From a virus, in IMG/VR virus record IMGVR_UViG_3300025264_000040, positions 1-37,789 of that record: 37,789 nucleotides of DNA; one strand, given 5' to 3'. Positions 1 through 36,904 of this stretch are shown here, piece after piece. A program made the position numbers and the translations under genes. The notes beneath the pieces are model-generated. The model saw only the letters and a list, made by a program, of their open reading frames with translations. It did not search any database and was not told where the DNA came from. Positions within the stretch are counted from its first letter, which is position 1. Each line of letters starts with the position of its first letter.

Positions 1-164
1 GGTTAAAGGAAATGAACGACGGCGGCAGGGCGATGCATCAATACAACTACAGAGATGATCGCGGGGAGTGGAGAAACGTGCGAGTGTGGGGGATTCCAGA
101 GGTGACTAAAGGCGATGTGGATCTACCAGATGTGGAGATGGTGCATAAGGAGATGCCGTTCTGA
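1..164 (+). CDS. small early protein, probably 5'-truncated by window edge
   Basis: The frame is open from base 3 and ends with TGA at 162-164. An ATG at 12 would give 50 residues, but the purine-rich stretch just before it is only one base away, too close for a normal ribosome binding site, so the start probably lies upstream of the window. The product is hydrophilic and acidic at its C-terminus (VDLPDVEMVHKEMPF). I recognise no family. Its stop overlaps the next start as TGATG, which ties it to the early operon that follows. Confidence 0.45.
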   Translation, partial: LKEMNDGGRAMHQYNYRDDRGEWRNVRVWGIPEVTKGDVDLPDVEMVHKEMPF

Positions 165-841
165 TGATCCACTATCACGGCACCCCACTTAGCCCTCAGA
201 TTGAGTTGCTGAAGATGGCGGGGAAGCATTTTTGCGTGAGCTTTGCAAGAACCGATAACGCTACTTGGTGTTTTGCTCACGGGCAAAGTGTGATGTGGGA
301 CAACGGTGCGTTTAGTTTCTACACACGTAAGACTGCCATTAAGTGGGATAAGTTCTACTCTTGGGTTGAGCCTCGCTTAGGACACCCCCATTGGGCTGTT
401 ATTCCGGACGTGATCGACGGGACAGAAGAAGCTAACTGGGCATTGATTAAGGAGTGGCCACTACGCAAAGATTGTGCGGCCCCTGTGTGGCATTTACATG
501 AGTCGCTGCTGCATTTACACAACATTCTTGATGAGGGGTTTCCCCGCATTTGTTTTGGTTCGTCCGCTCAATATTGGCAGATAGGCTCATTGGCATGGGA
601 GCGACGCATGGACGAAGTTTTTAACAGCATTTCGGCGTCTGGCTCAATGCCTTGGGTTCATATGCTTAGAGGGCTTTCGTTGTGTGGGGACAAATGGCCT
701 TTTGCATCAGCAGATTCTGTGAATGTAGCTAGAAACTTTTCGAGTCAGAACATGTGCCCAGAGCGAATGGCTAGGAGAATAGATGCTGTGCAAGGGCCGA
801 TAACGTGGACTTTGAAACCCATTCAAACGGAGCTTTTGTAA
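164..841 (+). CDS. TGT/DpdA-like phage protein (candidate 7-deazaguanine transferase)
   Basis: 225 residues. It belongs to a recurrent phage family that begins MIHYHGTP and carries DNGAF (46-50), IPDVIDG (80-86), PVWHLHES (107-114), a GSS turn (132-134) and ASADS (181-185). The spacing of PD, HLHE, GSS and the late DS motif resembles the TIM-barrel of tRNA-guanine transglycosylases and of DpdA, which insert 7-deazaguanine bases into tRNA or phage DNA. Asp46, Asp82 and Asp184 are candidate active-site acids. At 225 residues it is much shorter than bacterial TGT (about 375), and I see no Cys/His zinc site. It starts by TGATG overlap with the previous gene, with AAGGAG at 147-152. The next two genes look like a queuosine-precursor transporter and a QueF-like protein, which strongly supports the reading. 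The family link is from remembered motifs, not a search. Confidence 0.5.
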   Translation: MIHYHGTPLSPQIELLKMAGKHFCVSFARTDNATWCFAHGQSVMWDNGAFSFYTRKTAIKWDKFYSWVEPRLGHPHWAVIPDVIDGTEEANWALIKEWPLRKDCAAPVWHLHESLLHLHNILDEGFPRICFGSSAQYWQIGSLAWERRMDEVFNSISASGSMPWVHMLRGLSLCGDKWPFASADSVNVARNFSSQNMCPERMARRIDAVQGPITWTLKPIQTELL

Positions 842-1296
842 TGAGATATGTAGCCTTTTATATTGCTAGCGTGGTACTGGTTAACTGGGGCTTTTCGACT
901 TTTCCAGGCTACGAGTGGTTCTGGAGTATTGTTATTGGAGGCGTTTTTATTACTCGAGATTATTGCCAAAGAGCCGTGGGGCATTGGTGTGTGGCTGCCA
1001 TGGCGATAGCTGGTTTACTTAGTTACTGGATGGCAGATCCTTTTGTTGCTATTGCTAGCGTATGCGCATTTGCAGTAGCCGAAGTTGTGGATTGGGTTGT
1101 GTATTCAGTGACCAAACGGCCACTGGCAGATCGAATTCTTATTTCTTCTTCTGTATCAACGCCGCTTGATACTGTTGTGTTTCTATCAATGCTTGGGCTT
1201 TTATCACCTAGTTTAGTGAGTCTTCAAATTGCAAGTAAGATGCTTGCGGCGGTTGGATTGTGGATAGTGTTAAAGTTTTGGGTTCAACGTCGATGA
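841..1296 (+). CDS. VUT/YhhQ-like queuosine-precursor (preQ0/preQ1) transporter
   Basis: 151 residues and strongly hydrophobic, with about four to five membrane segments (roughly 3-20, 26-38, 50-68, 70-90, 112-145). Family features are visible: TRD at 38-40 after a membrane segment (compare ATDL in E. coli YhhQ), an EVVDW motif at 81-85 (compare the acidic D in GQILDV) and SSSVSTPLDT at 102-111 (compare the S-rich stretch ending in DT in YhhQ). YhhQ imports the queuosine precursors preQ0/preQ1 across the inner membrane. This copy is about 70 residues shorter than E. coli YhhQ. The chosen start at 841 overlaps the previous stop (TAATG) and has GGAG at 829-832; an in-frame start at 805 would overlap the previous gene without reason. 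It presumably feeds 7-deazaguanine bases to the neighbouring TGT-like protein. Confidence 0.72.
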   Translation: MRYVAFYIASVVLVNWGFSTFPGYEWFWSIVIGGVFITRDYCQRAVGHWCVAAMAIAGLLSYWMADPFVAIASVCAFAVAEVVDWVVYSVTKRPLADRILISSSVSTPLDTVVFLSMLGLLSPSLVSLQIASKMLAAVGLWIVLKFWVQRR

Positions 1297-1544
1297 AGAT
1301 CTGCCACAAAATTGAGGTGGTATGCAGTTGTCCTTCGGATGCATTGGGAGATGTGTATCAGTGCGAGATCCATACAGAGCGAGTAATAAAGGTAGAGGAT
1401 ATTATTGAGACTGTGGACTCTTTGAAAGATAAAAGTATGTATCAGGAAAGTGTAGCGGAATACTTGAGGAGAACACTGAGGGCTAAGATCGTTCTTAGAG
1501 GAACTCATTACGGACGAATATCAACGGAGGTGGTATGTGAGTAG
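1293..1544 (+). CDS. mini QueF-like T-fold protein
   Basis: 83 residues, starting at an ATG that overlaps the previous stop (ATGA); no clear Shine-Dalgarno is seen, so coupling is likely. CPSDALGD (13-20) lines up with the CPxTxxPD motif of QueF (preQ0 nitrile reductase): Cys13 and Asp20 are exactly seven residues apart, as are B. subtilis QueF Cys55 and Asp62. YQE (50-52) matches the FHE whose Glu binds the substrate base, and RGTHYGRIST (69-78) occupies the place of QueF's C-terminal PRGGI strand. T-fold enzymes (QueF, QueD, FolE) share this base-binding Glu. The protein is about half of B. subtilis QueF (165 residues) and shows no obvious NADPH-binding extension, so it may not be a reductase; a base-binding or transfer role is also possible. 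Together with the two upstream genes it forms a 7-deazaguanine cassette. Confidence 0.5.
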   Translation: MKICHKIEVVCSCPSDALGDVYQCEIHTERVIKVEDIIETVDSLKDKSMYQESVAEYLRRTLRAKIVLRGTHYGRISTEVVCE

Positions 1545-1552
1545 AGGTTCTG

Positions 1553-3094
1553 ATGAATAAGACGGAGGTTACTTACCTAGGACCACCGGGGACCGGCAAG
1601 ACCCAGCGTAACTCGAATTTAGTCCGTAAATGCATCGAGGACGGCATAGCGCCAGACAAGATTGCCAATGTGTCCTTCACTACACGGGCGGCAACAGAAA
1701 GCCAAGATCGCGTTTGCCATGATTGGGGATTGGAGGAAGATGGGCTTCCTTACTTTCAAACGTTGCACAGTATGGCGTTCAGGGCTGGTGGGTATAACCA
1801 TAACGAAGTTATTGCAGGAGACGACTTAAAAGCCCTTGGCGATTATCTCGGTATGGAGTTCAGTCGTCCTAAGAAGCGTTTTGAAACAGACCTCGAGCGT
1901 TTTGGTTTTACTACCGAAGGGGACAGATACCTCAATTTATACAGCTACGCTCGCAGTGTTTGCAAAGATTATGAAGAGGTGTTTCGGGTTAGGGGCGATG
2001 ACAGAATGCAGTGGCCTGTGTTCAAACTTCTTGTGACTACCTACGAGAAATATAAGCGCTTTTACCAGAAGATAGATTTCACAGACATGATTGAGCATTT
2101 TATTGCTATGGATACGTGCCCAGATATAGAGGCGCTTCTTTGTGACGAAGCTCAAGACTTGTCCACGTTGCAGTGGAAGATGATTTCTGTACTGAGACAG
2201 AAGCCTTCTATTCAAGCTTTTTTTGGTGATGACGACCAAGCCATCATGAATTTTGCTGGAGCTGATGTAGCCGCCTTTCAGCAGTGCACGGAAAAGAAGG
2301 AGGTACTCACTCAATCTTATCGAGTGCCTCAAGCTGTACATGAAGTGGCTGAATCTATCTCCAAGAAAATTGTTGGTCGGTTGCCAAAAACATGGAGACC
2401 TAGGCCGTATCAAGGTTTTGTGTTTGAGCACTTAGGGCTTGACAGCATTCCCTTGCATGAAGGCGAGTGGCTTTTGCTTACGAGGACAAATCGCTTAGCC
2501 GACAGATATGGAAGACTTTTGCGGGAGGCTGGCTGGGTATACAAGAATCGCCATGGCGATCCGTCTATTGTGCCTGGTTTGTTTGATGCCATTGTGGATT
2601 GGGAAGCTTGGATAAGAGGGGCCAAGCTTGTGCCTTCTCAAATAAAGGGGATCTATTACTACTTAAAAGCCGATGTCGGTTATAGGGAAGGTTATGCGCC
2701 CAGTGCCAGAATCTTTTCGACGCTAGACGCTACGGTAGCTTTGTCGATGGATGAGGCAAGAGTTTCCTTAGGACTATTAGCACCTAAGGACATCTGGAAG
2801 CGAGCGTTGACTAAGGTTGACGATGAAACCAAGCACTATATTTTGAGTGCTAGGCGACGAGGCGACACCGTTAAAAACCCCAGAATTACTGTGAGCACCA
2901 TTCATTCCATGAAGGGGGCGGAACGAGATAACGTTGTTTTAGTTCCGGAGTTGAACTGGGCAAGTTACGACGAATATCGAAGTAACCCAAACCCAGAGCA
3001 CAGGGTTTGGTATGTGGCGGCCACTCGAGCAAAAGAAAGTTTGCATATTTTGAATTCCAATTCTCTTAGTCACCATTACGCTTATCCTATCTAG
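1553..3094 (+). CDS. UvrD/PcrA-like superfamily 1 DNA helicase
   Basis: 513 residues. All SF1A helicase motifs are visible in order: Walker A GPPGTGKT (10-17), motif Ia near VSFTTRAA, Walker B LLCDEAQD, motif III GDDDQAI with FAGAD, motif IV LTQSYRVP, motif V STIHSMKGAERDNV and motif VI VWYVAATRAKE. It would couple ATP hydrolysis to 3'-5' unwinding, most likely at the replication fork beside the polymerase gene that follows. It is shorter than UvrD (about 720), with reduced accessory 1B/2B subdomains. AGAGG at 1543-1547 sits five bases from the ATG. No stop or frameshift is seen. Confidence 0.9.
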   Translation: MNKTEVTYLGPPGTGKTQRNSNLVRKCIEDGIAPDKIANVSFTTRAATESQDRVCHDWGLEEDGLPYFQTLHSMAFRAGGYNHNEVIAGDDLKALGDYLGMEFSRPKKRFETDLERFGFTTEGDRYLNLYSYARSVCKDYEEVFRVRGDDRMQWPVFKLLVTTYEKYKRFYQKIDFTDMIEHFIAMDTCPDIEALLCDEAQDLSTLQWKMISVLRQKPSIQAFFGDDDQAIMNFAGADVAAFQQCTEKKEVLTQSYRVPQAVHEVAESISKKIVGRLPKTWRPRPYQGFVFEHLGLDSIPLHEGEWLLLTRTNRLADRYGRLLREAGWVYKNRHGDPSIVPGLFDAIVDWEAWIRGAKLVPSQIKGIYYYLKADVGYREGYAPSARIFSTLDATVALSMDEARVSLGLLAPKDIWKRALTKVDDETKHYILSARRRGDTVKNPRITVSTIHSMKGAERDNVVLVPELNWASYDEYRSNPNPEHRVWYVAATRAKESLHILNSNSLSHHYAYPI

Positions 3095-3101
3095 ACGAAA
3101 A

Positions 3102-5048
3102 ATGATTGACGATCTTTTCAACGAGTCAGTTTGGAGTCCTCCTGAAGAGTTACCAAACTTGTCAGACGCTCCGATCATGGCAATTGACGTTGAGACGAGA
3201 GACCCTAATCTAAAAACGCTTGGCCCCGGATGGGTCAGGAATGATGGCAATCTGATTGGAGTAGCCGTAGCGGTTGACGGCTGGTGTGCTTATCTGCCTT
3301 TTGGCCACGGTGATATAGGCAATAACCGTGGTTATGGGAACATGTCCAAAACGTTAATCCTTCGCTGGCTTAAAGGTCAGTTAGCTCATGGGATGCCGGT
3401 TGTGTTTCACAACGCACAGTACGACCTAGGCTGGCTGCTGTCGGAGGGGGTTGATGTCAGGAACCCTATACTTGACACAATGGTTGCCGCTCCGTTGCTT
3501 GATGAGAACCGTTTTAGTTACGCGTTGAACTCGTTAGGAGCCACGTACCTAGGGGAACGCAAGCAGGAGGATGATTTAAGGCGAGCTGCGGCGCAGCACG
3601 GTGTTGATGCCAAGGCAGAGATGTGGAAACTTCCTGCTGCCAGGGTCGCCTTGTACGCACAGACGGACGCTAGGCTGACCTTGGAGCTTTGGCATGTGCT
3701 GAGCAAGAAAATCCGTGCAGACGGCTGTCAGTCCATCTTGGACCTAGAACTCTCGTTGTTACCCACGGTGTTTGAAATGCGGCGCCGCGGAGTTCGAGTT
3801 GATTTGGAGAAAGCGGAAAGAACCAAGAAGGGACTACTTGAGCTCGAGAACAAGCTACTGACAAAAGTGAAGAAGGAAACAGGCATCTGGGTTGAACCGT
3901 GGAACGCTAGAAGTTTGGCCAGTGTCTTTGACAATCTTGGTCTTGAGTATGGTCGAACGGCCAAGAGCGGTGCTCCAAGTTTTACCAAGCAGTTTTTAAA
4001 AACACACGAGCACCCTATTGCTAGGACTATTCTTGAGATAAGGGAGTACAACAAAGCCAATACGACTTTTGTGGATACGATTCTCAGCCACCAGCATGAA
4101 GGCCGTATTCATTGCGAGTTTAACCAGTTGCGCTCAGACGGTGGCGGTACGGTAACCGGGCGTTTTTCTTCCAGCCACCCCAATCTCCAGCAAATGCCCG
4201 CTAGGCATCCTGAGATTAAGAAGCTGATACGGGGTTTGTTCCTTCCAGAAGAGGGCTGCCGGTGGGGGAGCTTTGATTATTCTGCGCAGGAGCCGCGCTG
4301 GTTGATGCACTACGCTTGCCAATCTGAAGGCACTAAGGATAATTCCGTCGTGCAAGAGATTATACGACGTTATCATGAGGATGATTTCGATTTCCACCAG
4401 ATGGTAGCCGACTTAGCTGGAGTAGACAGGACGCTTGCTAAGACACTTAATCTGGGAATCATGTACGGAATGGGGGTTGCCAAGATGGCAACCGTTCTCG
4501 GAGATACTTCTTTTCAAGAAGCCAAAGCCCTTCGGGATGAGTACGAAGAGGAAGTTCCTTTTATCCGAGAGTTCGCCACGATAGTCATGGAGCAGGCACA
4601 GTTGCGCAAAGAGGTGAGAACCTTTCTAGGGCGTAAGTGCAGGTTCCCTATGCGCGAGCGGCCTTGGGAGAGGGGTTCCCCAGTCCACTACGAGACGATG
4701 GAGGCTGAGTGGCAGCAGATTATGGAGACTCCAGTGGCCAATCGGGCGGCCACTTACGGAACCAAGTGGCAGCTCTTAGATCCAGATAAGCTCAGGGTGG
4801 CTTTTACGTACAAGGCGCTGAACAAGTTGATTCAGGCTTCCAGCGCGGACCAAACTAAGCAGGCAATGGCGGATTGCACAAAGAACGGCTATCTGCCGAT
4901 GCTGACCGTTCATGACGAGCTCTGCTTTTCCATTGAAACTGACAGGCAGGTAGGTGAGATAAAAGAACTCATGGAGAAGTGCGTAGAGATGCGCGTTCCT
5001 TCAAGGATTGATGTCGGCATTGGCGACGATTGGGGAGCGGCAAAATGA
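3102..5048 (+). CDS. polA: family A DNA polymerase with 3'-5' exonuclease
   Basis: 648 residues; the replicative polymerase of the phage. Exonuclease motifs: AIDVET (27-32, Asp29 and Glu31), HNAQYD (Exo II) and YAQTDARLTLE (Exo III). Polymerase motifs: TGRFSSSHPNLQQMP, motif A DYSAQEPR (Asp392), motif B R-x3-K-T-L-N-L-G-I-M-Y-G, motif C VHDE (603-606, Asp605). Leu451 sits at the position equivalent to E. coli Phe762 or T7 Tyr526. Motif A has QEP where most relatives have (Q/G)xE(L)R, an unusual Pro. No 5'-3' exonuclease domain is present, as is typical of phage enzymes. The gene follows the helicase by seven bases and overlaps the next start by ATGA. Confidence 0.93.
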   Translation: MIDDLFNESVWSPPEELPNLSDAPIMAIDVETRDPNLKTLGPGWVRNDGNLIGVAVAVDGWCAYLPFGHGDIGNNRGYGNMSKTLILRWLKGQLAHGMPVVFHNAQYDLGWLLSEGVDVRNPILDTMVAAPLLDENRFSYALNSLGATYLGERKQEDDLRRAAAQHGVDAKAEMWKLPAARVALYAQTDARLTLELWHVLSKKIRADGCQSILDLELSLLPTVFEMRRRGVRVDLEKAERTKKGLLELENKLLTKVKKETGIWVEPWNARSLASVFDNLGLEYGRTAKSGAPSFTKQFLKTHEHPIARTILEIREYNKANTTFVDTILSHQHEGRIHCEFNQLRSDGGGTVTGRFSSSHPNLQQMPARHPEIKKLIRGLFLPEEGCRWGSFDYSAQEPRWLMHYACQSEGTKDNSVVQEIIRRYHEDDFDFHQMVADLAGVDRTLAKTLNLGIMYGMGVAKMATVLGDTSFQEAKALRDEYEEEVPFIREFATIVMEQAQLRKEVRTFLGRKCRFPMRERPWERGSPVHYETMEAEWQQIMETPVANRAATYGTKWQLLDPDKLRVAFTYKALNKLIQASSADQTKQAMADCTKNGYLPMLTVHDELCFSIETDRQVGEIKELMEKCVEMRVPSRIDVGIGDDWGAAK

Positions 5049-5431
5049 AATTAAGGACAGTTGTGATGGGATACGTAAAAGTTCATGCTAGATTTAAATT
5101 AAGAAGCAGAGTTGAGCGGGATTTAATAGAAGTTCTGTTGTTGGAAAGAGGTGCTGATCCTGAAACCCTGAGAATAGAAGCCGAGTCTCGGGACCTAGTA
5201 CATAAAGCCTTACGCAAACTGACTAGGAGAAGTCCTAGGGAAGCGGCGGCTGTCAAGCAGCGGTTTTTTGACGGGGCCACTTTCAAGCAAATTGGCAATA
5301 ACCTATCTTGTGGCAGAGACCCCACCGGTCAGCAAAAGAAGACAGTGCTCCAAGAACGGGGGCGGAGGTTGTATAAGAAAGGTATGAGAGACCTGCAAAG
5401 AATCATGTCGATCCCTCCGGAATTCTGGTAG
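5045..5431 (+). CDS. sigma-70 region 4-like helix-turn-helix protein
   Basis: 128 residues from the ATG at 5045, which overlaps the polymerase stop (ATGA); a TTG at 5030 is in frame but less likely. The protein is very basic. Residues 63-118 (SPREAAAVKQRFFDGATF followed by KQIGNNL and later ERGRRLYKKGMRDLQ) follow the layout of sigma region 4: an RE pair, a hydrophobic helix, a T/F-x-x-I-G turn, then a recognition helix with R/K residues ending in a leucine near the end. An insertion of about ten residues (CGRDPTGQQ) falls between the two HTH helices. It has no region 2, so it cannot be a complete sigma factor. It may act as a transcription regulator of the late genes or as a small-terminase-like DNA binder; both are inference. 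Confidence 0.5.
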   Translation: MKLRTVVMGYVKVHARFKLRSRVERDLIEVLLLERGADPETLRIEAESRDLVHKALRKLTRRSPREAAAVKQRFFDGATFKQIGNNLSCGRDPTGQQKKTVLQERGRRLYKKGMRDLQRIMSIPPEFW

Positions 5432-5438
5432 TAATTAG

Positions 5439-5924
5439 ATGAATAGCCGTGACGAATGGAGGACTCCAGCATGGCTTTTTCGGCTGGCACAAAGCATGTT
5501 TGGGCCATACGTACTGGATGCGGCAGCGAGCGATAAGAATGCCCTTTGTGACCGTTTCTATGACCTAGAGAATGACGGCACCAACCAAGAATGGGTTGAT
5601 GGTACGTGGTGTAATCCTCCTTACAGCAACATCACCCCGTGGGTTGACTGCGTAATTGAGCAGGACGTGCGGGCTACCCTATTGATTCCTTCTCCCAATG
5701 GAGAGTTAAGAGACCTAAGAGTTCTAACGGCTTGTTCTGAGATAGTGTTCTTCCAGCAACGAATTGCCTTCATTAACCCAGACACTGGCGTGGCCCAAAA
5801 AGGTAACCCTCGAGGAAGCGTTCTGGTGCATTTTGGCGGTGCAGCAAAAGGTAACTCCCCGCGGCTCCGGGTTATTTCAAAAGCGACCATTGATCTTTAC
5901 AGAAATTGGGGGATTCTCGCCTAA
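5439..5924 (+). CDS. phage-type DNA N6-adenine methyltransferase (Dam family)
   Basis: 161 residues. It has the typical phage Dam-family (Pfam PF05869 type) beginning DEWRTPAWLF, then FGPYVLDAAASDKNALC (SAM/target region) and the catalytic NPPY at 59-62, followed by ITPW. The C-terminal half includes LLIPSPNGELRD and a RIAFINPDTG strand common to this family. It transfers a methyl group from SAM to N6 of adenine in DNA, often for protection against host restriction; the target sequence cannot be told from sequence alone. It is the last gene of the rightward early operon. Together with the putative 7-deazaguanine cassette it suggests two layers of DNA protection. Confidence 0.88.
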   Translation: MNSRDEWRTPAWLFRLAQSMFGPYVLDAAASDKNALCDRFYDLENDGTNQEWVDGTWCNPPYSNITPWVDCVIEQDVRATLLIPSPNGELRDLRVLTACSEIVFFQQRIAFINPDTGVAQKGNPRGSVLVHFGGAAKGNSPRLRVISKATIDLYRNWGILA

Positions 5925-5957
5925 AAAAAGCCCTACAAACGGTGCGATTGTAGGGCT
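5923..5957 (-). terminator. intrinsic terminator for leftward (late) transcription
   Basis: A perfect 10-bp inverted repeat (AGCCCTACAA at 5929-5938, TTGTAGGGCT at 5948-5957) has a 9-base loop. Read on the minus strand, the stem is followed by seven T (5929-5923). On the plus strand no T-run follows. It therefore stops transcripts arriving from the right, just before they would run antisense into the early operon. Confidence 0.75.
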
Positions 5958-6055
5958 GAAATGGTGCGAATAGTGGGGCTGAGGGTCTGTCAGAGTCACA
6001 TTCGCACTGGGGGATACAGACTATAGCGGTTTTTTGACGACGCAGCAAGAAGCGT
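5958..6055. other. intergenic part of the switch region
   Basis: No gene is supported here. The plus strand shows GTCTGT (about 5985) and ACAGAC (about 6016) upstream of GCGGTTTTTT (6036-6041 T-run), a weak candidate rightward terminator for the early operon, but the stem is only about six pairs with a long loop. Confidence 0.3.
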
Positions 6056-6245: not shown

Positions 6246-7100
6246 ATGCTTAAAACGATACTGTTAATCGGAGCGTTGCTTGTCCTCCTAGTAAGCGGTA
6301 AGGCTAACGCCGCTCCTGCCATTCCGGGTTATCAACAAAAACATAACGAAATGCTCTACACCGTTGTGCTAGTCCGTCCAAGCCGCGGATCGGGATCAGG
6401 CACCGTTATTTGGTCTCAACCAGACGCCGAAGGGGAGTACCACTCGCTTATCCTTACGAACCACCATGTCGTGAGGCAGGCCATCAAGATCGAGGCGGCA
6501 TGGGACCCCAAGCTTGGCAAAAAGGTTGACCGAGAAAAACGTAATCTAGTGCGGGCCGAATGGCATATCTATAACGATTACTCGCACATGGTAGGGTCGA
6601 AATCGAGCCGCGCCGAAATTGTAGCGTACGACGCCAAGCTGGACCTTGCTTTGCTCCGGCTCATCGACCGAGAACGGCAGGTAACTCCCGTAGCATATTT
6701 TCTCCCAGAAGACGAACCGATTTACCTATTTGACGCGGTCACCGCTGTGGGTGCCGGTCTTGGAGAGCCTCCGTTCGCAACACAAGGGAATCTGGCCTTT
6801 ATGGATAAAATTATCGAAGGCGAGACTTATTTCCTTAGTTCCGCGCCGATAATCTTCGGAAACTCAGGAGGCGCCCTTTTCAGATATAGCCCCGAACGCA
6901 CACGATATGAACTGATTGGAGTTCCCTCGAAAGTATCGGCGGCGGGCTGGCAAGCGGTCAGCCATATGACTTGGAGCATCCCGGTCAACAACACCGTTCG
7001 AGACTTTTTGCGTGGGAACTGCTACCACCCCGTATTAGACGAACCTCTTGATGAAGAACTCTGCAAAAGTCTGGGGGAATTAAAAGATTTCGAGGATTAA
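6246..7100 (+). CDS. secreted trypsin-like (S1 family) serine protease
   Basis: 284 residues. A signal peptide is clear: K3, hydrophobic core 5-16, and a probable cleavage after ANA at about residue 22. The chymotrypsin-fold triad is complete: TNHHVV (His74), LDLALL (Asp133) and GNSGGAL (Ser207), with an HtrA-like look around GSGSGTV. No PDZ domain follows. The product would act in the periplasm or outside the cell. It is the only plus-strand gene between the early operon and the leftward late genes, has its own promoter, and AGAGG upstream of the ATG. This is the layout of a moron; possible roles are processing of host envelope proteins or exclusion of other phages, but none is shown by the sequence. 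Confidence 0.85.
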   Translation: MLKTILLIGALLVLLVSGKANAAPAIPGYQQKHNEMLYTVVLVRPSRGSGSGTVIWSQPDAEGEYHSLILTNHHVVRQAIKIEAAWDPKLGKKVDREKRNLVRAEWHIYNDYSHMVGSKSSRAEIVAYDAKLDLALLRLIDRERQVTPVAYFLPEDEPIYLFDAVTAVGAGLGEPPFATQGNLAFMDKIIEGETYFLSSAPIIFGNSGGALFRYSPERTRYELIGVPSKVSAAGWQAVSHMTWSIPVNNTVRDFLRGNCYHPVLDEPLDEELCKSLGELKDFED

Positions 7101-7312: not shown

Positions 7313-7658
7313 CCTCCTTATGAAATTCCAAAATCAACTCATCAAAGTCAAGCTCGTTCTTAATCCATAGAGCGGTGTCCTTATTAGAGACACCGGGTAC
7401 CTCGAAGTCTACAGCTTGCCCTGTTATATGTTGGCTAGTATCTGAAGAGCCAATCTGCCTGTTCAAAAGCACACAGCGAAAACCGCTTGATGGACTAATG
7501 GGCCTATTAAAATACTTTCTGACAGGCTCTAAAATGTGAAGGCACAGTTTCTTGAGGTTTTCCACCTCCCCCAGACTAGGAATGTTATCTATCCTGTATC
7601 TTCTAGCCACCTGGGACTTGGTGAGCTCCTCAAGAGTGAAGTGCTCTGAAAGTTTCAT
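7212..7658 (-). CDS. endolysin, M15 family peptidase
   Basis: 148 residues. It shows the Peptidase_M15 layout: FTLEELTKSQ near the start, SGFRC (58-62), QHITGQAVDFE (zinc ligands His77 and Asp84) and GWVHCSY (His124). These enzymes cut peptide bonds in peptidoglycan (L-Ala-D-Glu or D-Ala bonds) and serve as phage endolysins. No signal peptide, so it needs a holin; a 3-TM holin gene lies at 36500-36904. The start overlaps the stop of the large upstream gene (ATGA). Confidence 0.87.
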   Translation of the reverse strand: MKLSEHFTLEELTKSQVARRYRIDNIPSLGEVENLKKLCLHILEPVRKYFNRPISPSSGFRCVLLNRQIGSSDTSQHITGQAVDFEVPGVSNKDTALWIKNELDFDELILEFHKEGEPHSGWVHCSYVGQSNRKKSRKYDGRTWSNLP

Positions 7659-10600
7659 TGCCCAGGATAAGCGCCCATCATTTTCTGCTCCTCAACTTGT
7701 CTAAGAAAGTCTGAACCTGCCGTAGTTACTTGGTTCACAAGAGAAGGTGCCGCTTGTTGTAGGCTAGCAGCCATGTTGGCTTGGTCCTCTGTCTCTGGTT
7801 CAGTAACTGCTGTAGTGGCGATATTACGCGCTAAGTCTCCAGTAGCTTGTACTGACTCTCGCATTCCACCGCCTATGGTCATGGCGGCCACGGCCCTAGC
7901 TTCTCGGTCAATGAGCTCTCTTATCTTCATAGCCTTCAAGTTTAAGTCTGCTGATGGGCCAGTGCCAATGCTCAAACGCTTTTTGGCTAATGCTTCCGCC
8001 TGGCCTCGAGTCATGCTTTGCCCAGCATTCTGCGCTTTTCCTAGGATTTCTTCGGTAAGTATTCTAAGAGACCTTTCAGCATCAGCAGCTCTAATAGTGG
8101 GCTTGGTCATCCAGTTTAAGAAGTGGCGGTTACGAAGCACTCTTCCTGCGGCCAGAACGCTAGCAGCTTCCGTTAAAGCCGAAACCGGCTCTGTCATTAG
8201 CCTTAAACCAAAAGCCGCTGCAAAAGCCGCCGGGGCTAGCCCAGACTTTCCTTTCATAGCAGCGTTGCTGTATCTAACAGATTCGTCGGCGACTTTTAAC
8301 ATCCCCTCCACAGTGTCTTTTCCAAGTATTTCATTTAAACCTTCTCGGTCTTTACGAACAATAGCAGCCCTTAGATTTTTACCAAAATCTCCAGAGGCAA
8401 TTGTGGTAGGACTAAGACCGGTGTCTCCCACCGCTTCAAACAGTAGCTTCTCCACTGTCTTGTCTCTAAGGCCACCAACACTGTCAAAGGCGTCCTCACC
8501 GACAACTCTTCTTAACGATGAAACCATTGACGGTTCTTTCATTGCCGCCAGTATTAGATCGTCAGCATTTTCAATTCTTCCAGACCTCATCGCTTTAAAT
8601 AAAGCGTCCGTGCTCTGAGAAGTGGCGGCTTCCATTGAACTGCGAAGCGTAGAAACAGCGTCTCTCATCCCCTTATTGGTAATGTTGTCTAGCGTCTCAT
8701 CAAACAACTTAGCTTGTTGATTGGACCCCAGTAAGTGAAAGTCCTTTATTAGAGAACGGAATCCTTCAGCTTGTCCCTTAAATAATATGTTTTGCACCTC
8801 ATCCCCTAAAGCATCAAACTTATTTGCAAAGGAGGCTGCATCCGTAGCGCCGCCTTTTTTAGAAGAATCCAGCGCCTCTCTCATCCATACACCAGCCAGA
8901 ATGTCTCTGTTGGTTTCCTTCATTAGTTCTGGGCTTTTTCTTGCGACCATGTCATCCGCCCACGTAGACAGTGTTTCAGCCATATCATCCATGTACGTCA
9001 TAGACAACTTATAAAAAGGACTGCTTTGGTCGCCTGCCCTTAAAACAGCAGCAATACCTTCAGGCGGTCTGCCAACCACTTTGCTAGTTATTCTATTGTT
9101 GTTTAGAAACGAAACAACCGAGTCAACATCTCCATTTCTTGCGGCTTGAGCGGCGTCAGACCACACTCTTGGGTCTGTAGGAAGTCTCTTCAGTTCATCA
9201 ATATTAGATATATTTAAATCATCTAGCCAAGATCTTAAAAATTCAGGCCGTCGGTTTTTTATGACAGAATCCGCCACATCCACCATATCAGCGTATATCC
9301 CTTCCTCCATCAAAGTCCTGAGGCTGGTTATTTTTCCTTTATTAAAAGCCTCTTTGCCGTCACTGTAATGCTTGTTGGCTGCTCGTAATGCCTCAATACC
9401 TTTCGCTCGCTGCTCTATGGTCGCCTTAGATACTGACCTAGGTGCGTACCTAGTGCCTGTACCTATACCGGAACTAATTTCGTTAGCCGTTCCGCCTGCC
9501 ATAACCCTCTCGTAACTTCCGGCAAGCTCCCCAGCTTTGTCTTCCATCATCTTGGTTATGCTGTTGACAAGGTTTTTAATATCAGCATCAACAACCTCTC
9601 CTACAGCGTCTGAGCCTTTACCATGTGCTTGCAGCACTTGCCTGACCACATTGAGATCCGTCAACGAAATAGTAGGGCCTACCTGGTCAAGAAACTCAAA
9701 GAGTGGCTTATCTTTAAGACCAGATCCTAAGGGCCTAGCCACTATACGGGCAGCCTCGTCCTTCAACAATTTGGTACTGAAGGCAAGCACATCTGGGTCA
9801 AGTAATTTGTTTGCGTTCTCAAAGAGCTCCGTACTGTTTTGCTGCCACAGCCTTACTCTCTGCCCTATCTGCTCTTTAAAATAGGCAGCCTCACTAGGGT
9901 TGGACGAACGGGCAAAATTTTTCTGCAAAGCATCCATTTCACCGTCTATAAGAAATTTCAGTTGCTTGTTCGCCAGTTTGACCGCTTCGTCTGGGTCTCG
10001 CATGGCGTTTTTAACAATCCGCATCACTTCAGTCGAGTTTCGTTCCAAAGCTTGATCAAGAGCAGACTGAGACAATTCCCCGCGCTTGTACTGCCCAAGA
10101 AGCTTCTCCACGTGAGCAGCGTTTTGAATAGCTGGCCCCTCATAAGGTAAGATGGCTTCATAAATACCCTGAAGCCTAGACAAAATAGATTTTCCTGTAG
10201 CCTCTCCTATTGCTGGCACGGCTCTAGTTTCTCTAGCTTCCTTAAGAGCCTGTCTTCGTGCCTGTCTTAAAGTTGCCCCTTGGGATACAAGTTCCTTAAT
10301 ACGCGCCTCATCCGGCCTTGTACCCATAGCGGTTCTTACTTCTGTTCGAGCTTCTTGGCCAGCTAAATCTCGAGCTTCTTTCGCAGTAAGTCCACTCTGT
10401 TGCAGTTCAAAGATGCGCTCTTTATTTGGTGCTCCTCCTCCTTTGACAACGCGTCTTATTAATCTTCCCGCTCCTCCTATTACAAAATCGCCAGTGGCAG
10501 CTAAAACACTCTCAAAAGCCACATCTTTCCACACATCTCTGGCGTTTTGGTCCTGGAGATCGCGGACCAAATCCTCTTCTATAAATTCGTCAGCAGCTTT

Positions 10601-11203
10601 TCCTACGCCAGCACCAACGCCAACCAGCAGAGCGGACAATGGTATGCCAGCACCTAAGCTGGCAGCGGCTACTCCAGCAGCCATAGAACCTATAATTGGG
10701 CCTTGGTAGTCGCCCGCAAAACCAACAACATCGGATAAATCGAACATGCCAAGAATATCGCCGCCGGGGCGATTGACATAAATGGTTCCAGAACCAGGAA
10801 GGTTATACTCTTCCTTCTTTTCAGGAGAAATCTTGTCAAGAAGCAATACAAATTCGCCGTCTGGCGCTTTCTCAAAAGTTCCCTCGCCAAACTCTCTGGC
10901 CAATCGCATAGCTCGACCTGTGTCGTTGTCTGCTTTTGCGTAGTTATACTGAAAAGAAACTCCCTCTACTTCACCTTCGTTAGTTGGTTGGTAGGCTTGA
11001 TCTTTGCCGCCAGCGCCAAAGTGAGCTCTCAGATCCTCGTAAGAGGCGGTTGCTATATCAAAATCATCTTCAGGAGTTTCGGCTTGTGCATCTTGTCCAA
11101 AAATAGAACTCTGGATAAGTTCTATTTCTTGTTCCGTAGGCTGTTCTCCAGCAATTTCAAATTTTACTGGACCATCGGGAGTTTCAAAAACAGCGGTGCC
11201 CAT
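7655..11203 (-). CDS. large internal virion/ejection-type protein (1182 residues)
   Basis: The largest gene in the window. The N-terminus (METPDG-like strand, then TEQEIELIQ) is followed by an Ala/Gly-rich segment around residues 160-205 (GSMAAGVAAASLGAGIPLSA) that could span a membrane, then more than 800 residues of almost continuous charged helix. A second Ala-rich hydrophobic stretch (LAPAAFAAAFGLRLM) lies near 1000. I see no lytic transglycosylase or protease motif. By length, composition and position at the end of the structural module it resembles T7 gp15/gp16-type internal proteins that pass with DNA into the host. Exact family not recognised. Confidence 0.55.
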   Translation of the reverse strand: MGTAVFETPDGPVKFEIAGEQPTEQEIELIQSSIFGQDAQAETPEDDFDIATASYEDLRAHFGAGGKDQAYQPTNEGEVEGVSFQYNYAKADNDTGRAMRLAREFGEGTFEKAPDGEFVLLLDKISPEKKEEYNLPGSGTIYVNRPGGDILGMFDLSDVVGFAGDYQGPIIGSMAAGVAAASLGAGIPLSALLVGVGAGVGKAADEFIEEDLVRDLQDQNARDVWKDVAFESVLAATGDFVIGGAGRLIRRVVKGGGAPNKERIFELQQSGLTAKEARDLAGQEARTEVRTAMGTRPDEARIKELVSQGATLRQARRQALKEARETRAVPAIGEATGKSILSRLQGIYEAILPYEGPAIQNAAHVEKLLGQYKRGELSQSALDQALERNSTEVMRIVKNAMRDPDEAVKLANKQLKFLIDGEMDALQKNFARSSNPSEAAYFKEQIGQRVRLWQQNSTELFENANKLLDPDVLAFSTKLLKDEAARIVARPLGSGLKDKPLFEFLDQVGPTISLTDLNVVRQVLQAHGKGSDAVGEVVDADIKNLVNSITKMMEDKAGELAGSYERVMAGGTANEISSGIGTGTRYAPRSVSKATIEQRAKGIEALRAANKHYSDGKEAFNKGKITSLRTLMEEGIYADMVDVADSVIKNRRPEFLRSWLDDLNISNIDELKRLPTDPRVWSDAAQAARNGDVDSVVSFLNNNRITSKVVGRPPEGIAAVLRAGDQSSPFYKLSMTYMDDMAETLSTWADDMVARKSPELMKETNRDILAGVWMREALDSSKKGGATDAASFANKFDALGDEVQNILFKGQAEGFRSLIKDFHLLGSNQQAKLFDETLDNITNKGMRDAVSTLRSSMEAATSQSTDALFKAMRSGRIENADDLILAAMKEPSMVSSLRRVVGEDAFDSVGGLRDKTVEKLLFEAVGDTGLSPTTIASGDFGKNLRAAIVRKDREGLNEILGKDTVEGMLKVADESVRYSNAAMKGKSGLAPAAFAAAFGLRLMTEPVSALTEAASVLAAGRVLRNRHFLNWMTKPTIRAADAERSLRILTEEILGKAQNAGQSMTRGQAEALAKKRLSIGTGPSADLNLKAMKIRELIDREARAVAAMTIGGGMRESVQATGDLARNIATTAVTEPETEDQANMAASLQQAAPSLVNQVTTAGSDFLRQVEEQKMMGAYPGQ

Positions 11204-11205
11204 AG

Positions 11206-13842
11206 CTAGCTCCCTGTGCTTTTCTTAAATGGTGTCTCAGCTAATCTTAAATTCTCTAGTGTCGGACTAAAAAACTGGTCTTGGAAATGCGTTCCTTGTG
11301 CACCATAAAGTCTCATTGTTTCTGTTTTTGGATCGAATTTAAATGTATAACTTGAACCTCCACGTTTTTTCACTCCAGATCTTCTTTGCATAGCTGCTTC
11401 AATTTCCGGAATATAAGGGCTAAGCTTTAGGGCCTCTCTCCGTTTGCTGTAAGAAGCCCCTTCTAAACGGGTAAGAACTGAAAGATATTCCCTTTCCGCT
11501 TCGTCTGCCTGTTTTGAAAACACGGACAAAGTTTGCTGCAATCTGTCAACCATAACCTCCTTATTGGCTGTAATTAAGGCAAGATCAAACACTCCCCCAC
11601 CTTTATTAGATGTCCAAGCTGCGTCAAGATAGGCATCTGCTAAAAGTTCTACATCCCTGTTTGAGATAGAATTGGCTGTCTGAGCTTCTCCTAGACTCAC
11701 AGGAATAAGTTTTTGGAGTCCCAGTTTTATGGCGGCTTTAGCTTCGTCTCTACTGGTAAACTGAGTGGAAATGTCCTTAAATCCAATAGCCTTTAGAGCG
11801 TTCCCCATAAGAGTTTTAGCGGCACCAGATATTCCTATAATATCGTCAGGTCTTGTAGCTAATAGTTCTATAACACTAGACATGGCGGTAGTGCCTACTT
11901 CCGCGCTAATTAAATCCTTGGTTGCTGTCTTCAACTGAAGTTTTAAATCTTTGGCTTCTTGGTACCCTATAAGACCTTCTTTTCGCTGGGTCTCAATCGC
12001 AGCACGTATTGCTTTGGCCTGTTCTGTGGCCTGTTTCTGTGCTGCTAAAACAAAATTCTCTGACCTAAGTCCTTCCGGCATTACGCCACCGGACGCCATA
12101 ATTTCGGCTTGAGAGATAAATCTCACTTCCCCATATGGATTTTCTTTTGTTGCTTTGCTAGTGTCATAGAACATGTGTGTCTTCCTAGCGTCTGCATTTC
12201 TTTGAGTCCTTTCCGCCGTTAAAGCCTGTATGCCGTATTTAGCTGCGGATAAATCAATCTGCCTCTTAAAAGCACGCTGTTCTTTAGCATCTTCACCAAC
12301 AATGTCAGCGTGTTCTTTTAAAGCTTCACCTATGTTCACAAGGGCATGCGGGCTTTTACCAGCCATCATGGCTGCGCCTAAACGCATCCAATCTAATCCT
12401 TTTTCTTCGGAAGTTTTCCCTTCCCATTCAGGCATTGAGTCTATAAATTCTTGCTTAAATGCAGCTAGTTTTTCTGAGTCTAACGCTTCCTCGTTTTCAT
12501 CGGATGCAAGATCTCTAAAAAGAGCCTCTCCTACATTATCTGTTTTTTCACGATTCATATACGGATCGTTACTCAACAGTAACCCAGCAGAATTAACGGC
12601 ACTAGTTGTATCACTATCACTAGTTGTAGTTGTTTCAGTATCAGTATCAGTAGTTGAATCCACTGCTTCTGTTTCTGTTATCTCTGGACCAGAAACAGCG
12701 TCGTCTGTCGAAAGTGACTCGAGGTCTGCGTATGGTGGGCGGATGTTCTGGGAAAGACCTTCGCCATAGCGTCTATCCGCCGAACGAACGAGTTCTAGAC
12801 CTCTCATCTTCATGCGCTCGTCTGATTGCAATAACTCCTCTGCTAAGGTTTCCCCAGGTATACCACCTCCAGCTGTTATTTCAGCTAACTTATCTTGGGC
12901 GACTTGAGAGACAGTCCTAGGAAGGTCCCCCAATTCAGGCCGCATACTCCCACTAGGACCATGACCCGCCCATCCTTTTAATACCGGAGGCAGTTCTGTA
13001 CCTAGAGTTGCGCCTTCCTCAGTCATCACGTTACGGTGCCTCTCTCCCTCCGCAAACCGCCGCAGAGCATCCAACTTAGCGGCCTCGGCGGTATATCCCG
13101 CCGGAACTAAGGCAGGTCGATCCCGCCAGTCGTCTTCGACCAAACTTTGCGGAGCAGCGGCTACAGCAGTCATGGGGCTGGTGCCGTTTACCTGTTCAGC
13201 CACGGACACATCTGGTGAATCATAACCGGTCCATGAGGCTTCCGGAGGCCCACCGGGAATCATATCTCCCGCAGGAGAAGGAACGGGGCTAGTGCCGTTT
13301 ACCTGTTCAGCCACGGACACATCGCTAGCCAAATCGGTTACGCTGCTTAATAAGTCTTCACCTCGGTCTACCAGACCAGCACCAGCGGACAGAGCTTGGT
13401 TTATCATATCCTGAGCAACGGCAGGCGCAACATTAAAAGCTTCGACTATCGCATCAACCGCACTGACTCCTTGAGCCTTTGCGGCAGTTACTATTTCATG
13501 GACCTTACTGAACACTTTATTAAAGGCACTATCTTGGTAGCCTTCCACAGATCTAATCACTTCTTCAAACGGAACATTCTGCAAATTCCCCGGAAGTTCA
13601 CCGTCAACCCCTGCAATATCCAAGTATGTGGTAGGTACATCAGATTGCTTTAATCCTGCCGGACGAGCACCCAAAGCAATTCCACCTCGAGCGTAATTGA
13701 CCAGTCCACCTTCGTTCAAGGTCACTGAATCTATAAGAGGCGAAGATGAAGCTAGGATGCCTGCCGCTTGACTGGGAGGAACCAACCCCCCACCACGGAA
13801 CATCATGCGGTTAGCTAGGATGGATTTAATTAGCTTGGCCAT
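11206..13842 (-). CDS. internal virion-type protein with low-complexity linker (878 residues)
   Basis: The N-terminus has RGGG and ARGGIA elements often seen in marine phage virion proteins. A 13-residue motif DVSVAEQVNGTSP occurs twice (about residues 172 and 208). A Thr/Ser/Asp linker (roughly 395-420, DTDTETTTTSDSD) separates it from a mostly helical C-terminal half rich in Lys, Glu and Ala. No enzyme motif is seen. It sits between two other predicted internal virion proteins, with stop and start only a few bases apart. A structural or ejection role is inferred from context. Confidence 0.5.
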   Translation of the reverse strand: MAKLIKSILANRMMFRGGGLVPPSQAAGILASSSPLIDSVTLNEGGLVNYARGGIALGARPAGLKQSDVPTTYLDIAGVDGELPGNLQNVPFEEVIRSVEGYQDSAFNKVFSKVHEIVTAAKAQGVSAVDAIVEAFNVAPAVAQDMINQALSAGAGLVDRGEDLLSSVTDLASDVSVAEQVNGTSPVPSPAGDMIPGGPPEASWTGYDSPDVSVAEQVNGTSPMTAVAAAPQSLVEDDWRDRPALVPAGYTAEAAKLDALRRFAEGERHRNVMTEEGATLGTELPPVLKGWAGHGPSGSMRPELGDLPRTVSQVAQDKLAEITAGGGIPGETLAEELLQSDERMKMRGLELVRSADRRYGEGLSQNIRPPYADLESLSTDDAVSGPEITETEAVDSTTDTDTETTTTSDSDTTSAVNSAGLLLSNDPYMNREKTDNVGEALFRDLASDENEEALDSEKLAAFKQEFIDSMPEWEGKTSEEKGLDWMRLGAAMMAGKSPHALVNIGEALKEHADIVGEDAKEQRAFKRQIDLSAAKYGIQALTAERTQRNADARKTHMFYDTSKATKENPYGEVRFISQAEIMASGGVMPEGLRSENFVLAAQKQATEQAKAIRAAIETQRKEGLIGYQEAKDLKLQLKTATKDLISAEVGTTAMSSVIELLATRPDDIIGISGAAKTLMGNALKAIGFKDISTQFTSRDEAKAAIKLGLQKLIPVSLGEAQTANSISNRDVELLADAYLDAAWTSNKGGGVFDLALITANKEVMVDRLQQTLSVFSKQADEAEREYLSVLTRLEGASYSKRREALKLSPYIPEIEAAMQRRSGVKKRGGSSYTFKFDPKTETMRLYGAQGTHFQDQFFSPTLENLRLAETPFKKSTGS

Positions 13843-34073: not shown

Positions 34074-36500
34074 CTAGTTTCCTCTACCGGCACTTCCCAT
34101 TTCACCAATTCTTTCAAGGTTGACATCAGCTCTAAGCAACGCAATATCTTCCTGAGAGTCCATCTTCTCGCGGGTCAAATCCTGACGTTGAGCCTCGCGC
34201 TGTTCCTCGAACCCTTGTTTGGAAGAAAACTCATCAGCTTTACGCTGCATATCCATCGCCTTAATGTCGAGCTCCTTACCCCGCAACTGAACCAAGGGAT
34301 CATTCTGCCCTGCTGGCGGCGGTATTAAGGCAGCCATGACTTCCTCGGTGTACTGCGCAATATACTGCGCAACCTTGGCTTCCACATCTACTTGCATCTG
34401 CATTTGAGCCTCTTGCGGTGAAATCTGTCCCGCGGCCTGCATTTGCTGTAACTGCTGGGACTGCTGCATCATTTCAGCCTGTACCACACCCCTGGCTTTA
34501 AACGCTATATGCTCACACAGGTGCGCTTGCAGTAACCCAAAAATAGGTGGGGTGGAAGAAGGAGTGGGTGTCTTCATAAACATCAGGTGAGACGCTATGT
34601 GAGCGTCATGATCCTGTGTCTGAAATGCCTGCAAAGTCTCCTGAATAATGGATCTAGCGTTTTCTATGGACGGATCCGTGGGTTGCGGAGGTGTCGGTGT
34701 CGGTAAAACACCCTCAATGTTGGGAACGCCAATAGCCTCGTAAATGCGCCGATAAGCCTCATAAAGGTTGTGCATTTGCGGATTAGACTGAGCCAACTGC
34801 AATTGCGTCTGGGCCAAAGCCAATCTCTGCGACATTGAGAAAATATTGGGGTCAGACACAGGCATAATGTCAACACGGTCATCAAAATCAGCCTGTTTTA
34901 CTAAAGATTCAGCTCCCCACACGTTGTAGGGGTACATGGGGGGCAGGGATTCCGAAAACACCCTAGCCAACATCTTAAATTCTATCTTCTGAGCGTAATG
35001 CAAGCGCTTATGCACCGCAGACATCACTTTTGACCCCCGCTCGAGGAGGGCAACTGTCGTTCCTACCGCCGCTTGCTGGTTCCCATCGCCTACCTGTAGG
35101 TCGGCAATAGCCGCAAATCGCCTTCCGGCGTCTACGACAAACCCCAAAAGCTGCATTAGGGTTTGTGAGGGCTCTTTGTAGGGAAGCGGGAGAATACTTT
35201 GGCTAAGAACGCCACCGGGGACATCAATATCACGAAACTCGCCAGGAGAAAGAGGCTGGTCAGCATCGCGAATACGGATACCACGAGCTTTAAAACCAGC
35301 AGGAAGATTGGCCAAGGTGCCTGCATCAATCAATTGCCTTAAAATAGAGGTCGCGGAGCGGCCCAAGCCCCCAATCATGTGCAAAAGACCAAAACCGTAG
35401 AAACCAAGCCCAGGAAGGAACTTGTAATGCGTAAAATAAGGGATCCGGCGGAAAAATTCATCACCTTCTCGCCAATTTCGGCGAATTGACAAGATTTTCG
35501 AGCTCCCCTCGTCAACTGTGATGATATAAGGCAGCTTTATGCCTGTTTGCTCATTGTCAATAGGGCTAACATGCTCAAATCCGGGCAGATCAAGGTCTGT
35601 ATGTACCTCTAAAAGGGTGCAATCCTTGTCATCGGTCGTTTTTTGAATCCCTGAGAGTTCCCTTTCCTTGTCTCGAAGCTCATCGTCTTCATCATAAGGG
35701 ATCAATTCCACCTCTCGGTAGAACCCACCGGCCTGAAACTTGCGAACATCATTCTCCGACATGCGAATAACATGCGTAATTCTCGCTGCGGAGTTCAAAT
35801 CAGTTGCGTTATACGGAACTACAAGGTCATCGGCGGGTACAAACCTAGCTACCGCACGATCCAAAAGGTCATCGAAATAGACTTTCTTAAACGCACTACC
35901 GGCAAGCGGCAAATAAAACAGCAAACGGTCCATTTCTGGATCAAATTCTTCCATTACATGGATAATTTGATAGTTCATGAACTCCTTGACGCGCTCAGAT
36001 TGTGCCTCAACCTCTGGGTTGGTGGCTCCTATGATCTGAGTACGCACTGGGCCTGAACTAGGAAGCAGCTCTTTGTACGCCTGCGCCTGAAATTGTGTCA
36101 CCGCTTCCGCAATTACGGGGTGAGTGACTCCACTCGAGCCTCTAAAAGGCTCTTCTCGCTCTTCATACTTAAGACCCAGCAGTTTTAGACCACTAACGTA
36201 AGCATCTTCCCAGTCATCTCGACTAGAACGATCATCCTTGTACAGACCTGTAAGTTCATCGGATATCCGCATCAAGTCGCGTTCATCAAGAACTTCCGCT
36301 AAATTTGCGTCGGGTTCCGTTTGAAGCTGCTCTTGAATGCGTTGACCAAAGTTTAGGATAACGGAACCATCCTCTTCCTCGATCATCTCGGTGGGATCGC
36401 CTATCTCCTCAACATCAACTTCCTCTTCCATCAATTCAACGATAGGCGTTCCCTGTGCAGGCATAATGTCGTCAATAAGGGAGGGTCTTCCGTTAGCCAT
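34074..36500 (-). CDS. portal (head-tail connector) protein
   Basis: 808 residues. The acidic N-terminus leads to a portal core with YKDDRSSRDDWEDAYVSGLK, PFRGSSGVTHPVIAEAVTQF, a long central stem region, and GYPGLGFYGFGLLHMIGG-like residues around 400. The C-terminal third is a Gln/Met-rich helical barrel (MQQSQQLQQMQAAGQISPQE). It forms the dodecameric ring for packaging and ejection. It is long for a podovirus portal (T7 gp8 is 536, P22 gp1 is 725), with a barrel similar in idea to P22. The stop of the holin gene overlaps its start. Confidence 0.87.
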   Translation of the reverse strand: MANGRPSLIDDIMPAQGTPIVELMEEEVDVEEIGDPTEMIEEEDGSVILNFGQRIQEQLQTEPDANLAEVLDERDLMRISDELTGLYKDDRSSRDDWEDAYVSGLKLLGLKYEEREEPFRGSSGVTHPVIAEAVTQFQAQAYKELLPSSGPVRTQIIGATNPEVEAQSERVKEFMNYQIIHVMEEFDPEMDRLLFYLPLAGSAFKKVYFDDLLDRAVARFVPADDLVVPYNATDLNSAARITHVIRMSENDVRKFQAGGFYREVELIPYDEDDELRDKERELSGIQKTTDDKDCTLLEVHTDLDLPGFEHVSPIDNEQTGIKLPYIITVDEGSSKILSIRRNWREGDEFFRRIPYFTHYKFLPGLGFYGFGLLHMIGGLGRSATSILRQLIDAGTLANLPAGFKARGIRIRDADQPLSPGEFRDIDVPGGVLSQSILPLPYKEPSQTLMQLLGFVVDAGRRFAAIADLQVGDGNQQAAVGTTVALLERGSKVMSAVHKRLHYAQKIEFKMLARVFSESLPPMYPYNVWGAESLVKQADFDDRVDIMPVSDPNIFSMSQRLALAQTQLQLAQSNPQMHNLYEAYRRIYEAIGVPNIEGVLPTPTPPQPTDPSIENARSIIQETLQAFQTQDHDAHIASHLMFMKTPTPSSTPPIFGLLQAHLCEHIAFKARGVVQAEMMQQSQQLQQMQAAGQISPQEAQMQMQVDVEAKVAQYIAQYTEEVMAALIPPPAGQNDPLVQLRGKELDIKAMDMQRKADEFSSKQGFEEQREAQRQDLTREKMDSQEDIALLRADVNLERIGEMGSAGRGN

Positions 36501-36904
36501 TACTTAGTTATCCCCTTTGCTTTTTCCCAGCTACGCAGACCGCCCAGACCTAGCATCCCCAGAAGGACTGGCATCATTGCTCCTAAGTCCACTGGGGGCA
36601 GGTCTACATACTGGCCTTGCTGAACCAGAACAAACGTTATGACAGGTTGTGCAAGGTAGGTGTAGAACAAAGCCAGACCGCACGACCATCCGATGAATGG
36701 TCGCCATCCAGCCACAAAAAGATTACGGTGAGTCGCTTCTTGCTGATTGACTTGTATCTGTGCAATATCAATGTGGGCGAGATGATCGGTTAGGCGCGAC
36801 GCAATCTCCCGCTGTGCCTTTGCTTTCTCCTCCTTGTTTGGGAAAAACCGGTCAAGTACATCACCAACAACCGGAAGCAAACCAGGAATCAGACTAGACA
36901 ACAT
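36500..36904 (-). CDS. 3-TM holin
   Basis: 134 residues. The first 65 residues are soluble and amphipathic (LDRFFPNKEEKAKAQREIAS), followed by RNLFVAGWRPFIGWSCGLAL, the signature of the HOLIN_3TMs family, then membrane segments at about 70-90, 92-108 and 108-124 (GAMMPVLLGMLGLGGLRSWE). Holins trigger lysis by making inner-membrane holes for the endolysin (7212-7658 here). Its start overlaps the upstream stop (TAATG). Confidence 0.83.
   Translation of the reverse strand: MLSSLIPGLLPVVGDVLDRFFPNKEEKAKAQREIASRLTDHLAHIDIAQIQVNQQEATHRNLFVAGWRPFIGWSCGLALFYTYLAQPVITFVLVQQGQYVDLPPVDLGAMMPVLLGMLGLGGLRSWEKAKGITK

Follow-up and report, generated by a model that had tools for sequence, protein, structure and literature searches.

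Phages that carry a DpdA-type base exchanger have been described both with and without genes for the synthesis of 7-cyano-7-deazaguanine (preQ0). Pantoea phage Vid5 and Queuovirinae-type phages such as CAjan and 9g combine a DpdA or TGT-like (tRNA-guanine transglycosylase-like) gene with preQ0 biosynthesis genes, and Vid5 and CAjan also have a VUT transporter for preQ0 or 7-aminomethyl-7-deazaguanine (preQ1); for CAjan, dPreQ0 is an established modification (PMC6884629). Phages Dp-1 and HVTV-1 encode the NADPH-dependent reductase QueF alongside FolE-QueDEC and have dPreQ1 in their DNA (PMC6884629). Conversely, the DpdA-only Pantoea phage MED16 and Salmonella phage 7-11 have no preQ0 synthesis genes, and their DNA carries traces of 2'-deoxy-7-amido-7-deazaguanosine (dADG) (PMC8306585, PMC6884629). 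Such DpdA-only phages may depend on host preQ0 or on uptake (Hutinet 2019), and in 2018 the Vid5 authors suggested salvage by way of a transporter encoded by the phage (PMC6266253). Here we analyze the IMG/VR virus record IMGVR_UViG_3300025264_000040 from position 1 to 37,789 (the window, meaning this whole stretch of DNA), in which a dpdA-like gene (gene 1), a transporter gene (gene 2) and a gene for an 83-residue T-fold protein (gene 3, mini QueF-L) overlap one another (Table 1). The window lacks the preQ0 biosynthesis genes of Vid5, CAjan and 9g; mini QueF-L is not known in those phages, although no search for it was made there. MED16 and 7-11, which have a related DpdA, have no transporter or mini QueF-L detected beside dpdA.

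The described enzyme closest to gene 3 is QueF-L, the archaeosine synthase of archaeal tRNA. QueF-L acts on preQ0 already within the nucleic acid (tRNA), uses free ammonia and forms a thioimide through the nucleophile Cys21 (PMC5485725). A profile of 16 gene 3 members compared with the Protein Data Bank (PDB) had one significant match, QueF-L (5jyx, E = 1.3e-4), the next having an E-value of 0.29. The AlphaFold model (predicted local distance difference test, pLDDT, 93.8) runs strand-strand-helix-helix-strand-strand, and its best 13 Foldseek matches are all QueF-L chains. In VIA-align, QueF-L superimposes with Z 14.1 and a root-mean-square deviation of 1.0 Å over 82 of the 83 residues, followed by GTP cyclohydrolase I (Z 11.2) and QueF (Z 10.8). 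Alignment to 5jyx pairs Cys13 of gene 3 with Cys21 of QueF-L and Asp20 with Asp28. C13, E35 and E52 are invariant in the 16 aligned members, and a Cys, a Tyr, two Glu and a His are invariant across 34 sequences of the family. Gene 3 and the QueF-L of Pyrobaculum calidifontis (PDB 5jyx/5k0p) thus have in common the T-fold, the thioimide Cys, the paired Glu and, in the clade of the window, the Asp at +7 from the Cys. They are 21% identical and differ in length (QueF-L has about 109 residues) and in setting, QueF-L being an archaeal tRNA enzyme whereas gene 3 is a phage gene adjoining dpdA.

QueF enzymes carry the NADPH motif E[SL]K[SA]hK.. in their sequence. As in QueF-L, this motif is absent from gene 3: none of the 16 members has a Lys two residues after Glu35. 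There is also no match between gene 3 and Pfam QueF (PF14489). By sequence profile and predicted structure gene 3 stands closest, among known enzymes, to the amidinotransferase QueF-L, not to the nitrile reductase QueF, and assignment to QueF itself was rejected on the closer QueF-L match, the missing Pfam match and the missing motif. The earlier note had called gene 3 QueF-like; this stands at the level of the superfamily, with a predicted T-fold and conserved residues of the CPSDALGD and YQE motifs, and falls for QueF in the strict sense. Given the kinship to QueF-L and the absence of the NADPH motif, the expected product would be 2'-deoxyarchaeosine (dG+), or the amide, rather than dPreQ1. 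BLAST of the window gene 3 against named phages gave no match; with a member from a Pseudomonas prophage as query, homologs were found in the cultured phages Epa33, Mae-JY30 and RHph_X2_30, where they are annotated as hypothetical. The corresponding PHROGs family, phrog_37496, is listed as unknown. Pfam and NCBIfam alone call neither gene 1 nor gene 3, for which profile and structure comparison were needed.

Gene 1 matches phrog_887 ("queuine tRNA-ribosyltransferase") with E = 1.6e-46. A tblastn search with gene 1 matched 104 phage records, including MED16, whose DpdA is 40.6% identical (E = 2e-33). Pfam TGT matches neither the window protein nor 42 family members; the MED16 relative has been tied to TGT by HHpred (PMC8306585). 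Across 37 relatives of gene 1, H110, D46, D82, S182, D184 and S185 are invariant, so that the HLHE and ASADS motifs, from which a TGT/DpdA-like enzyme had been suspected, are conserved. The AlphaFold model is a TIM-barrel, and VIA-align places first 9ntn (Cap10, Z 10.8), 2ash (TGT, 9.9) and 7ui4 (the DNA preQ0 insertase DpdA, 9.9). PdxJ barrels (Z 9.1-9.6) and other barrels come just under these matches, and Foldseek alone returned only generic TIM barrels, with no E-value below 0.001. From sequence and model together, we take gene 1 to be a DpdA-type transglycosylase with a predicted base exchange in DNA. The Cap10 of the best structural match is from the Cap10-CdnD complex of a type IV cyclic-oligonucleotide-based anti-phage signaling system (CBASS), which at the level of the model suggests kinship of phage DNA modifiers with a defense enzyme.

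For gene 2, TIGR00697 (queuosine precursor transporter) matches all 21 aligned family members, at best with E = 2e-11. The window protein alone matches TIGR00697 with E = 7.6e-5, under the curated cut-off, Pfam Vut_1 with E = 1.4e-4, likewise under the cut-off, and phrog_4899 with E = 4e-29. It is 39.5% identical to the "putative preQ0 transporter" of CAjan, and several Vibrio matches are classed as Queuovirinae. The YhhQ-like motif pointed out in the earlier note is kept, with S102 and D110 invariant in the 21 sequences. By family membership, gene 2 is a putative queuosine-precursor transporter of the VUT/QPTR type (COG1738), and both its likeness to YhhQ and the exchange with queDEC described below point to preQ0 or preQ1 as the cargo.

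Used as the sole bait in a scan of 2.9 million viral contigs, gene 3 recovered 24 loci. dpdA adjoins it in every one, and the transporter is also present in 21; co-occurrence of the trio in other phages had been set beforehand as a test of the cassette. The genes occur in the orders DpdA-VUT-QF (as in the window, QF being mini QueF-L), VUT-QF-DpdA, DpdA-QF-VUT, VUT-GLEP-QF-DpdA and QF-DpdA. This repeated reshuffling with adjacency kept favors a shared function. Gene 3 beside dpdA recurs across many unrelated backgrounds: in metagenome phages, in the cultured Rhizobium phage RHph_X2_30 (L104; an example of a phage with the trio), Microcystis phage Mae-JY30 (L106) and Pseudomonas phage Epa33 (L157), and in Pseudomonas, Cupriavidus and Roseateles genomes. 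Mae-JY30 and Epa33 have dpdA and mini QueF-L, whereas the cultured phage RHph_N3_2 has only dpdA and the transporter. With dpdA as the bait, 73 clusters were left once loci had been merged at 90% identity and those with less than 1 kb of flank on one side or the other set aside; 49 of them have the transporter next door and 19 a mini QueF-L. The linkage is not accidental, and the three genes are one functional cassette without precursor synthesis. The grouping made in the earlier note, of a TGT/DpdA-like enzyme with a transporter of the preQ0/preQ1 type and a very small protein of the QueF superfamily, is borne out by the predicted folds and by the co-occurrence.

Profile searches of the window, a fragment open at both ends, each had a working positive control and gave no match to QueC, QueD, FolE, QueF or a radical-SAM protein (QueE), in agreement with the earlier observation that no FolE, QueC, QueD or QueE was in view. 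None of QueC, QueD, FolE and QueF was found in 21 transporter-carrying records. At one and the same site, record L065 has queD-queE-queC-dpdA and record L076 has VUT-queF-L-dpdA. DNA identity between the two records is about 86% in the upstream flank and about 83-84% in the downstream one, and the DpdA proteins share 93% identity; Pfam confirmed QueC and QueD in L065. Since the transporter, with gene 3, takes the place of local preQ0 synthesis, preQ0 is supported as the cargo. A Fisher test of transporter against QueE across clusters was not significant (p = 0.105), in part because phages that differ by the swap fall together in clusters merged at 90% identity; the direct swap carries more weight. 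Searching the transporter-less records with a transporter profile, for which there was no positive control, returned nothing. In L009 and L011, as in L065, the same DpdA family adjoins queE in place of the transporter.

Other small genes accompany dpdA. A conserved protein of 80-86 residues (motif GGLEPRF..ERADG.PI...RRY..VLDFSGADP) lies inside the dpdA cassette of Rhizobiales phages, Pam5 and Caulobacter phage DMCA (L026, L029, L103, L104, L105, L117 and L119; for example L103:5678-5938). In DMCA, a 98-residue QueD-like protein with an HGH motif (L105:4705-5001; PF01242, E = 1.9e-5, below the cut-off) immediately precedes dpdA, a further case of a small T-fold protein accompanying a DpdA. Mini QueF-L is directly upstream of dpdA, with no transporter, in Pseudomonas genomes (L143-L149 and L154) and in Epa33 (L157), where the preQ0 is probably made by the host. 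A C5-cytosine methylase adjoins dpdA in Epa33.

We infer from these data a route in which the membrane protein encoded by gene 2 would import preQ0 into the infected cell and the TGT-fold enzyme would swap selected guanines of phage DNA for preQ0, two steps strongly implied by the protein families. Cys13 of the T-fold protein would then attack the nitrile of the DNA-inserted preQ0 to give a thioimide, ammonia would resolve the thioimide to dG+, and the modified phage DNA would resist host nucleases. That the cassette as a whole works in this way, on a base that the phage does not make itself, we consider somewhat more probable than its opposite. We are considerably more confident of a broader reading, in which a 7-deazaguanine is imported, inserted and further modified in DNA, and we give dG+ as the product an even chance.

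Several observations weigh against this route. The general-acid Asp at +7 from the Cys is present in the clade of the window (Asp20) and some relatives and is Asn or Ile in most family members, and the His preceding the second Glu in QueF-L is replaced by Gln before Glu52 in the window; the reaction of gene 3 may therefore differ from that of QueF-L. Among the dpdA-bait clusters, many relatives lack gene 2 or gene 3. The gene 1 model is of moderate quality (pLDDT 74.5) with a poor C-terminus. As the window is incomplete, the lack of precursor-synthesis genes holds for the fragment and is not proven for the whole phage. MED16 has only 0.13% dADG, which gave little restriction resistance (PMC8306585), and proteins of Dp-1 and HVTV-1 that HHpred called as QueF-L made dPreQ1 (PMC6884629).

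The Dp-1 and HVTV-1 proteins favor an alternative in which gene 3 is a nitrile reductase that converts preQ0, free or in DNA, to preQ1, leaving dPreQ1 in the phage DNA. QueF belongs to the same superfamily, uses thioimide chemistry and is a structural match of gene 3; however, gene 3 is clearly nearer to QueF-L in both sequence and structure, and with neither a Pfam QueF match nor the NADPH motif a reductase is quite unlikely. Water rather than ammonia might instead resolve the thioimide, as in a nitrile hydratase, giving the amide dADG. The variable general acid would fit a changed second half-reaction, and dADG is the base found in MED16 and 7-11 (PMC8306585, PMC6884629). An overlooked mini QueF-L as its source there was looked for and rejected: the MED16 dpdA neighborhood and the first 45 kb of 7-11, the part searched and the one holding dpdA, have no gene 3 homolog. 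dADG thus seems independent of gene 3, and with ammonia as the QueF-L precedent we regard this variant as unlikely.

A target in host or phage tRNA, as part of queuosine or archaeosine metabolism, would suit the TGT fold of gene 1 and the tRNA substrate of known QueF-L (PMC5485725). Against it, DpdA proteins put 7-deazaguanines into DNA (PMC6884629), MED16, a DpdA-only phage of the same family as gene 1, carries dADG in its DNA (PMC8306585), and DpdA equals TGT as a structural match, so that we hold a tRNA role to be very unlikely. Finally, a protein as small as gene 3, adjoining dpdA at all its loci and with a variable general acid, could assist DpdA or the transporter without being a catalyst itself, as a partner protein or a base carrier. 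Its five invariant residues, of which the Cys and Glu match a covalent active site, make this the least probable explanation. Conversion of DNA-inserted preQ0 by gene 3 is the reading that we prefer.

DpdA, phage transporters and salvage have already been proposed, and to call a salvage-only system new, as the earlier note did, was too strong in view of the Vid5 and DpdA-only proposals cited above. We did not find a description of the mini QueF-L family or its strict link to this DpdA family, nor of the strong DpdA-transporter link and the swap of synthesis for import, in a literature search that did not cover a 2023 Nucleic Acids Research paper on DpdA subfamilies, where earlier naming is possible. 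That a widespread QueF-L family of about 80 residues acts on preQ0 in phage DNA, and that phages trade queD-queE-queC for a transporter and mini QueF-L beside the same DpdA, is a tentative proposal to which we give slightly less than an even chance.

Table 1. Positions of the cassette, its surroundings and the two swapped loci.
Feature	Record	Position	Strand	Assignment or context	Evidence
dpdA-like gene, 225 aa	window	164-841	+	predicted DNA 7-deazaguanine transglycosylase, TGT superfamily	phrog_887, AlphaFold model, MED16 DpdA kinship
Transporter gene, 151 aa	window	841-1296	+	putative VUT/QPTR (COG1738, YhhQ-type) queuosine-precursor transporter	TIGR00697, Vut_1, phrog_4899, CAjan relative
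Mini queF-L, 83 aa	window	1293-1544	+	predicted T-fold protein with Cys13, Asp20, Glu35, Glu52	profile, model, Foldseek, VIA-align
TGATG	window	162-166	+	dpdA overlapping the preceding open reading frame; suggests translational coupling	sequence
TAATG	window	839-843	+	dpdA/transporter overlap	sequence
ATGA	window	1293-1296	+	transporter/mini queF-L overlap	sequence
UvrD-type helicase	window	1553-3094		downstream of cassette	
Family-A DNA polymerase	window	3102-5048	+	downstream of helicase	
Trypsin-like peptidase	window	6246-7100	+	downstream of Dam methylase	PF13365, E = 1.2e-15
Large proteins of 1182 and 878 aa	window	7655-13842	-	between endolysin and DNA-ejection genes	no PHROG match
Gene-transfer-agent-type holin	window	36500-36904	-	adjoins portal gene	PF11351, E = 8.9e-18
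queE and queC	L065	3329-5000		queD just before	
Transporter and mini QueF-L	L076	4279-5000			

The three open reading frames and their overlapping junctions, as first noted, were verified in the sequence. Transporter and gene 3 start at ATG 841 and ATG 1293, the longer GTG frames (805 and 1260) being mechanical calls. Downstream, the family-A polymerase resembles the aminoadenine polymerase DpoZ (305 bits, below the cut-off of 500) and genes for a small sigma-like protein and a methylase of the Dam type come next. Most of what remains of the window is a minus-strand structural module with tail fiber, major head, portal and terminase genes, the linear fragment ending within a terminase gene cut at 37788. 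Positions 1-6000 hold no Rfam family, hence no known riboswitch, and no tRNA.

If the proposed route is correct, the cassette would be a minimal path to DNA hypermodification with a T-fold enzyme that acts on DNA, and would explain such hypermodification in phages without precursor synthesis. It would also provide a function for phrog_37496 and, for many DpdA phages of unknown modification (Hutinet group 3), a product that can be tested, and anti-restriction in phages would come to include the uptake of a micronutrient from the environment.
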